Of a stretch of DNA of 64,000 nt, positions 8,335 to 51,820 are shown in pieces. The notes beneath the pieces are model-generated. The model was not told the DNA's origin. It made no database searches and was given only the letters and a program-made list of their open reading frames with translations. Source of the stretch: an uncultured Paracoccaceae bacterium (GTDB taxonomy: Bacteria; Pseudomonadota; Alphaproteobacteria; Rhodobacterales; Rhodobacteraceae); contig CANLYJ010000001.1 in the NCBI GenBank assembly GCA_947495295.1, forward strand, positions 806,001-870,000, read 5' to 3'. The position numbers and the translations under genes were made by a program. How positions within the stretch are numbered: the first letter of the stretch is position 1; each line of letters opens with the position of its first letter.

Positions 8335-8667
8335 CAGCGGCAGACGGTCTCCACCATTACAACGCTCCGGATCAAATCCAGTCACCACGCGGCCACCCTC
8401 CCCAAACCTTAACCCCACATTTACATTCCCGCCGCACGCCCCGTTAACCCGCCAAATCCACAAAATCGTGCCCGACGCTTTGCCGACGTCTCGCCGACGC
8501 TCTGCCGACTACCCATTTCAGCCAAAACCCCTGCGTTAACGGCTCCAACCGCGATTCGGCCCGACAAGGGTGTTGCGCCCGCACGCTCCTCCCACCGCAC
8601 GTTGCGCAGCCCCATATTGCGCCCGCCCGAAAAATCCGCAATTTGGTTGCAGGATAAAGGGGTGTTC
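8335..8667. other. Gap before murD with a CCGAC array
   Basis: This 333-bp intergenic stretch precedes murD. It holds the 11-bp-spaced CCGAC array (8472-8509) and two GTTAAC words (near 8444 and 8536). It ends in the murD ribosome-binding site. No gene is supported. It probably carries the promoter for murD and downstream genes, since the inserted gene separates murD from mraY. Confidence 0.6.
8472..8509 (+). promoter_or_regulatory. Array of four CCGAC boxes at 11-bp spacing (locus A, upstream of murD)
   Basis: CCGAC occurs at 8472, 8483, 8494 and 8505, exactly 11 bp apart, separated by six-base words of the type GCTTTG, GTCTCG and GCTCTG. The array ends about 160 bp before the murD start. 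The same four-box layout recurs at 41803-41840 and 51732-51769. Spacing close to one DNA turn suggests a cooperatively bound operator. The binding protein is unknown. Confidence 0.65.
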
Positions 8668-41776: not shown

Positions 41777-41802
41777 GGTTCAGACAGCGTTAACACTTAT
41801 GC

Positions 41803-41840
41803 CCGACGTTTTGCCGACGCTGCGCCGACGCTTTGCCGAC
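41803..41840 (+). promoter_or_regulatory. Array of four CCGAC boxes at 11-bp spacing (locus B)
   Basis: CCGAC occurs at 41803, 41814, 41825 and 41836, with spacer words GTTTTG, GCTGCG and GCTTTG. It lies between the gatB stop (minus strand) and the DUF4177 start (minus strand), about 90 bp upstream of the latter. The layout matches the arrays at 8472 and 51732. Confidence 0.65.
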
Positions 41841-51673: not shown

Positions 51674-51731
51674 GGCGCGCCGCATTCCACGAATCAAACG
51701 TAAACACTGCTGTTTCAGGGAGATTTGCCCG

Positions 51732-51769
51732 GTCGGCAGCGCGTCGGCGAAACGTCGGCCTTTTGTCGG
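51732..51769 (-). promoter_or_regulatory. Array of four CCGAC boxes at 11-bp spacing (locus C, minus orientation)
   Basis: GTCGG occurs on the + strand at 51732, 51743, 51754 and 51765, the reverse complement of the CCGAC arrays at 8472 and 41803 with identical spacing. It lies about 125 bp upstream of the HemG-like gene and just upstream of an FNR-type box. Confidence 0.65.
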
Positions 51770-51820
51770 ACCCTTGCGCGCGGTACGCCGCGATTAAACC
51801 CCCGTATGCCATGTTAACGA

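Follow-up and report, generated by a model that had tools for sequence, protein, structure and literature searches.

Arrays of CCGAC boxes at an 11-bp period in intergenic DNA of Rhodobacteraceae, candidate binding sites for a sequence-specific protein

The window analysed here is a stretch of 64,000 nucleotides from an uncultured Paracoccaceae bacterium of the family Rhodobacteraceae (assembly GCA_947495295.1, contig CANLYJ010000001.1, positions 806,001 to 870,000), and it carries three intergenic arrays of a short direct repeat, the CCGAC box. The first array (8472..8509, plus strand) lies 107 bp upstream of the start of murD, a gene identified by TIGR01087. The second (41803..41840, plus strand) is located in the gap between gatB and a DUF4177 gene, 10 bp from the stop codon of the former and 85 bp upstream of the start of the latter. 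The third (51732..51769, minus strand) occupies the gap between a Peptidase_C26 gene and a HemG-like flavodoxin gene. Genes, here and in all counts below, are those of an in-house open reading frame caller based on codon usage, not of a standard gene finder. The first-pass annotation of the window placed these arrays correctly, and each consists of four exact boxes at an 11-bp period with gaps of 6 bp. Its description of the spacers as free of purine runs fails at array 3, which carries the spacer AAAAGG. A search of the window that allowed up to two mismatches returned 6 overlapping three-box matches, all of them exact, against an expectation of 0.24 and a maximum of 4 among 100 dinucleotide shuffles of the window.

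The arrays are abundant in the genome from which the window derives (4.27 Mb, 21 contigs; hereafter G000, with other G labels for relatives and L labels for loci). The whole genome displayed 134 three-box and 55 four-box matches of the CCGAC-N6 pattern, and the reversed pattern gave no match of either kind. Allowing for overlaps, including one overlapping pair of four-box matches, this amounts to approximately 79 arrays: 53 of four boxes, 25 of exactly three, and one of five. The earlier statement that arrays have exactly four boxes thus holds for the window but not as a rule for the genome, and arrays of G085, which belongs to another genus, often have 5 or 6 boxes. We read 58 of the approximately 79 arrays of G000 together with their flanks; the remaining 21 or so are nearly all three-box arrays. 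The only five-box array of G000 (L060:3260-3773) is followed by an extra CAGAC box; a BrnA-antitoxin-like gene (PF14384) starts 63 bp away.

The boxes are under purifying selection, and the spacers drift about as fast as the flanking DNA. Ortholog pairs were aligned with G000 as the reference: 14 pairs came from 22 arrays of G048 (flanks about 93 percent identical), and 8 came from 22 arrays of G047 (about 83 percent) and the 58 arrays of G000. The boxes of G000 are exact by selection, so the test draws on what changed in the other species; part of the loci of those species were also chosen by their arrays, and those not so chosen were tallied separately. Between G000 and G048, changes were found at 3 of 275 box positions and 17 of 246 spacer positions (p 8e-4). 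Between G000 and G047, the figures were 0 of 140 and 31 of 126 (p 1e-11, one deletion pair omitted). The loci not chosen by arrays displayed the same difference (3/175 in boxes vs 13/156 in spacers, and 0/60 vs 11/54). Spacer change was close to that of the 60 bp on either side of the arrays, at 6.9 vs 8.5 percent for G048 and 27 vs 29 percent for G047, here with the deletion pair counted.

The base preceding a box was changed in 0 of 62 cases and the base following it in 3 of 62. Constraint on the box and one base on each side suggests that the kept core is the 7-bp word GCCGACG, followed by 4 freer bp. Spacer positions 3 to 5 are 59 to 100 percent A/T in the six genomes profiled. The register is also kept: the 22 ortholog pairs held a single indel, the exact loss of one 11-bp unit. 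Among loci of G000, G047, and G048, with orthologues counted apart, ten arrays had three exact boxes and a single mismatch in the remaining one. All ten mismatches fell at box position 2 (8 CAGAC and 2 CTGAC), and nine were in box 4. In 19 further arrays with three exact boxes, the other box carried two or more mismatches.

Arrays are confined almost entirely to intergenic DNA. In a genome whose sampled DNA is 88 percent coding, 54 of 57 arrays of G000 are intergenic, one overlaps a gene end, and two lie within a predicted gene. The first-pass annotation would have regarded the arrays as noise had they occurred at random positions, including inside genes, and without conservation; their placement and the orthologous arrays in relatives and other genera show otherwise. 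Across six genomes, 144 arrays were found in 13 divergent, 87 tandem, and 44 convergent gaps. As background we took the array-free gaps of at least 60 bp from 60 sampled pieces, each up to 20 kb long; these numbered 525, with 131 divergent, 332 tandem, and 62 convergent. Arrays avoid divergent gaps (p 2e-5) and favour convergent ones (p 3e-7), although the 144 arrays are not independent events, as close relatives account for three of the six genomes. Orientation relative to genes is mixed, with both orientations found at gene ends. The preference for convergent gaps and gene ends, together with the presence of some arrays in short gaps just before a gene, suggests that these are not promoter operators. 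Neighbouring genes are unrelated, in agreement with the earlier proposal that the arrays precede unrelated genes and are not pathway-specific. A search for neighbours common to the arrays gave scattered recurrences, none of which was a plausible binder by eye.

Many arrays belong to a larger module with set flanks. Aligned on the array, its consensus reads from left to centre as approximately CACCGCRCG, a TTAA at -28, GGGGT, and four boxes; to the right follow an A/T tract 6 to 9 bp past the last box, GCGTTAAC at about +64, and GATTCG. Flank words at array 1 of the window are a CCGCACG word of this module at 8432..8438 (plus strand, assigned by coordinates and module consensus), GTTAAC on the left at 8443..8448 and on the right at 8535..8540 (both unstranded, by coordinates and placement test), GATTCG at 8553..8558 (plus, by coordinates and the GTTAAC-GATTCG search), and, in the far right flank, the word CACCGCACG at 8593..8601 (plus, by coordinates and word count). 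Around array 3, all on the minus strand, are GTTTAC, a variant of GTTAAC, at 51700..51705 and GATTCG at 51690..51695 on the downstream side, and GTTTAA at 51794..51799 on the upstream side. Array 2 is an array without the full module; it has a GTTAAC on its left at 41789..41794 (unstranded), which is also found in the orthologous gaps of G048, G047, and G042. Other arrays without the full module lie a few bases past a stop codon or just ahead of a start.

Among the 58 arrays of G000, TTAA occurs in the -45 to -15 flank of 41, in the +15 to +45 flank of 40, and in both flanks of 35. GATTCG is found further to the right in 33, and 11 have none of the three flank features. Within 150 bp of the arrays, TTAAC/GTTAA falls mostly in bins -70/-60, -40/-30, and +60 in G000, G047, and G048, and in bins -30, +60, and +110 in G345. 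The main bins were -30 and +50 for G304, and -40 to -20 and +50 for G242. Flank counts for G047 and G048 are biased, as their loci were partly picked by the GTTAAC-GATTCG motif; those of G000, G304, and G242 were picked by arrays alone. GTTAAC density was 2.4 to 2.8 per kb in array-bearing gaps vs 0 to 0.27 in other gaps, and the GTTAAC-GATTCG score was 14 to 22 in the five array-rich members of the genus vs 0 to 5 in the other 51. CACCGCRCG occurred 14 times near arrays and never in the remaining intergenic DNA of the G048 sample; it was also intergenic in array-free G008 (4 occurrences) and away from arrays in G345 (3). A short palindrome, CCGYRCGG, was present in the left flank of 10 of 57 arrays, and several arrays of G242 share a common left flank ending in TTTTACTGCG.

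The distribution among relatives is uneven. Within the genus, 14 of 56 genomes carry a four-box array. Five of these are array-rich, with 42 to 81 four-box matches each (G000, G042, G047, G048, and G050), and the other nine have 1 to 5. The array between gatB and DUF4177 is present in all four of the other array-rich genomes, with three boxes in G047 and one mutated box in G042; in G050 the upstream flank has been replaced and the array retained. It was seen in none of 16 other members of the genus that were read at this locus. The orthologue of array 3 likewise adjoins the same Peptidase_C26 gene in G042, G047, G048, and G050. In the family sample, an exact four-box array was found in 32 of 395 genomes, and nine genomes from other genera reached ten or more matches (10 to 66; G085, G114, G190, G215, G266, G304, G345, G403, and G418). 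Some low-count genomes, such as G174 and G442, have identical or near-identical spacers, and their matches look unrelated to the arrays described here. Two array subtypes coexist in G345, one with boxes after G or T and one with boxes after TA (TACCGAC).

Outside the family, the named-genome scan gave, among the matches listed, scattered ones in unrelated bacteria. Tyrosine recombinase-like genes, recognised by eye, start approximately 130 to 640 bp from CCGAC arrays at L091, L095, L103, L114, L128, and L162, in several unrelated bacteria (Samsonia, Leptothrix, Massilia, an actinomycete bin, and others); these probably represent a different element. Single 45-base array queries, which are weak tests, had no match in plasmids and one weak match in phages, to a haloarchaeal virus. 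At least 120 stretches of viral contigs contained arrays. These matches are uninformative, since 70 of the 131 arrays tallied had identical spacers and one resembled the arrays of G000.

Other lineages carry a different word at the same period and, in part, at the same genes. The reversed control had matches in four genomes of the family sample: 33 in G242, 2 in G075, and 1 each in G307 and G442. The 33 matches of G242 are four CAGCC boxes at 11 bp, and the reversal of the CAGCC pattern gave 0 matches in that genome. The 29 distinct arrays read in G242 are all intergenic and have the same A/T tail, with flanking GTTAAC in some. A de novo scan for any 5-letter word, with samples chosen around arrays except for part of the G048 pieces, linked period 11 almost exclusively to CAGCC in G242 and, in G000, G048, G304, and G345, to CCGAC or shifted forms of it.

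Four places illustrate the recurrence across lineages. An array lies 24 to 26 bp before lpd in G000, G004, G016, G025, and G146 (another genus), and at the same place in G040; by coordinates, the distance is 26 bp in G042 and 38 bp in G215. The end of gltD has a CCGAC array in G000, L118, and L138, and a CAGCC array in G242. CCGAC arrays precede aroQ in G246 and G345, and a CAGCC array does so in G242. Meanwhile, arfB has a CCGAC array in G016 and G040, and a CCATAC array in G099. We surveyed lpd loci from 30 genera, which were the best 30 protein matches of 90 genomes rather than a random sample; six had a strong signal at period 11 within 130 bp upstream of the gene. All other periods from 7 to 21 together gave one signal, at period 15. 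Box words at lpd were CCGAC in G000, ACCGAC in three boxes in G105 and G128, CCATAC in four boxes in G099, and CAGAC mixed with CATAC in G129. In G132 (L405:90), three TTGTGCAT units at 11 bp lie just upstream of lpd, tentatively included as their direction is unlike that of the CCGAC type.

In 260 kb of G099, CCATAC was the sole word at two period-11 places, arfB and lpd, the latter in a piece chosen to include it. We read this word as C-CATAC, with the register set by eye from a shared ACGCTTT. In 100 kb of G129 there was no recurrent period-11 word; an intergenic three-copy GCCCAA repeat with an 11-bp period at L400:7354 is a single case of a possible further box word. CCGAC, CAGCC, and CATAC are two steps apart from each other, and each is one step from CAGAC. 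Lineage-specific words at the same places suggest a protein whose specificity may drift together with its sites.

Based on these findings, we consider it reasonably probable that one sequence-specific protein binds the arrays cooperatively, in an architectural rather than a regulon role. Fixed-register conserved cores, free spacers, use of both orientations, and the bias away from divergent promoters point to protein-bound architectural DNA. The first-pass annotation had proposed cooperative binding or a chromosome-structure mark; with boxes conserved, register kept, neighbours unrelated, and divergent promoters avoided, such non-pathway, structure-like binding stands as the best reading. The 11-bp unit, close to one helical turn in length, would comprise the 7-bp core and 4 freer AT-leaning bp, and three or four subunits or domains would sit side by side on one DNA face. 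The most likely output would be local DNA architecture instead of on/off control of a regulon: the arrays could act as roadblocks or anchoring points, or could bend or wrap the DNA. In some lineages, the module (TTAA word, array, A/T tract, TTAA word, and GATTCG) would have spread to dozens of places, and a few array places (lpd, aroQ, arfB, and gltD) recur across genera. As the recognition of the protein changes, the sites would follow, and the box word would come to differ by lineage.

Several observations weigh against this interpretation. None of the candidate binders examined (AP2, CenR, and RAYT) proved to be the bound protein. An exact four-box CCGAC array is missing from 363 of the 395 family genomes, and a 414-kb sample of the relative G008, about a tenth of its genome, displayed one isolated three-copy period-11 match and no recurrent word at that period, which suggests that the array system is dispensable or has been lost in most lineages. 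The few ortholog pairs with G047 suggest that array places turn over between species. At lpd, 24 of the 30 loci had no array, and each genome other than G242 contributes one or two loci to the evidence for word changes. Array positions in G345 and G085 displayed no clear pattern relative to origin and terminus, as guessed from skew samples of G345, in which the arrays are unevenly spread along one scaffold without a symmetric pattern.

AP2 domains came into consideration as binders because RCCGAC is also a plant word: the DRE/CRT element RCCGAC of plants is bound by AP2 domains. The likeness lies in these six letters, and it ends there, as an AP2 domain was found in 0 of 35 genomes, array-rich or array-poor.

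Among the alternatives, a selfish or domesticated dispersed repeat is the likeliest, although we regard it as unlikely. A mobilising protein dependent on the boxes would copy the module, which would be tolerated at gene ends, where it does little harm. The set architecture at many unrelated intergenic places, its abundance in some genomes and absence from their relatives, the avoidance of divergent promoters, the apparent turnover of places, and the common left flank ending in TTTTACTGCG in G242 are all consistent with this explanation. REP and BIME repeats are dispersed, intergenic, biased to gene ends, and lineage-specific in copy number. The arrays share each of these traits, the bias to gene ends having been tested, and differ in being direct repeats rather than palindromes, in lacking a consistent RAYT, and in a core under site-by-site selection. 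Against it, boxes in dead copies would not be expected to persist at orthologous places as the spacers drift, and some places recur across genera. RAYT, the one candidate mobiliser considered, was rejected: one query had no match in 6 of 16 array-listed genomes, all six array-rich (G304, G190, G403, G085, G215, and G242), and it matched genomes without arrays, such as G008 and G001. RAYT-like genes do occur near arrays, within about 1 kb in L094 and, by coordinates, at 187 bp in G000 and 125 bp in G345. At L014 (G000:C1 about 319198), the RAYT-like gene is close to a three-box array and is flanked on both sides by its own, different palindromic repeat, GTGCGCATGAATGCGCACCCTACG. Dispersal as a repeat and protein-bound architecture may both be true.

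A conventional regulon, in which a transcription factor such as an OmpR/PhoB-type response regulator would use the arrays as operators and control approximately eighty operons, appears improbable to us. It would account for the few arrays 8 to 38 bp upstream of lpd, aroQ, or arfB. Pho boxes have a 7+4 split of kept and free bp. Like Pho boxes and the direct repeat units of PhoP, the arrays are 11-bp direct repeats on one DNA face, with a kept core followed by freer AT-leaning bases. Unlike these operators, they have a different word and are not tied to promoters: dozens lie in convergent or gene-end gaps, 13 of 144 are in divergent gaps against 131 of 525 in the background, and a minority lie just before a gene. 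Unrelated neighbours and mixed orientation also argue against a regulon. CenR, the one alphaproteobacterial OmpR-type regulator whose motif was compared, was rejected as the binder, as that motif is a TGA-N8-TGA direct repeat (PMC9275681), unlike the CCGAC-N6 of the arrays.

An RNA element in leaders or 3′ ends is very improbable, although some arrays immediately precede a ribosome-binding site or follow directly on a stop codon. RNAalifold gave 17 aligned modules values of -3.8 (plus strand) and -11.0 (minus strand) vs minima of -0.6 and -2.5 in 30 column shuffles, a weak consensus signal from two or three short helices. Single-sequence folds were unremarkable (mean z of +0.4 and -0.3 on the two strands), the window had no Rfam match, and gene ends carry arrays in both orientations. 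Finally, tandem-repeat noise without function is hardly credible: unrelated bacteria and viral contigs do hold scattered exact matches, many with identical spacers, but G000 has 134 matches against none for the reversed pattern, and its spacers differ while the boxes are kept.

Returning to protein-bound architecture, parts of the arrays resemble, by analogy, known kinds of DNA, namely 11-bp operator arrays, REP-like dispersal, and scattered chromosome-structure sites. The sites of Noc, SlmA, and MatP are single short sites. They are like the arrays in being scattered sites for one DNA-binding protein without a pathway tie, and unlike them in that the arrays are direct repeats, often within a larger module. 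Searches of the open-licence PMC literature, which lacks most subscription journals, gave no description of these arrays. More tentatively, we propose as a possibility that the arrays represent a chromosome-marking system found across Rhodobacteraceae, in which a protein and its scattered arrays repeatedly switch word together in single-base steps around CAGAC while some places and the 11-bp register are kept. Such a system would parallel, in bacteria, the fast-evolving recognition of hotspots or centromeres.

These findings describe a class of conserved intergenic DNA that can be used in annotation, and the arrays are a ready bait for finding their binder. The bias towards convergent gaps and gene ends suggests that they act in topology or in the layout of the chromosome. 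If our interpretation is true, a binding protein with dozens of sites in the genome has changed its recognition word several times with its sites following, and the Rhodobacteraceae would offer a natural series for the co-evolution of a protein and a genome full of its sites.
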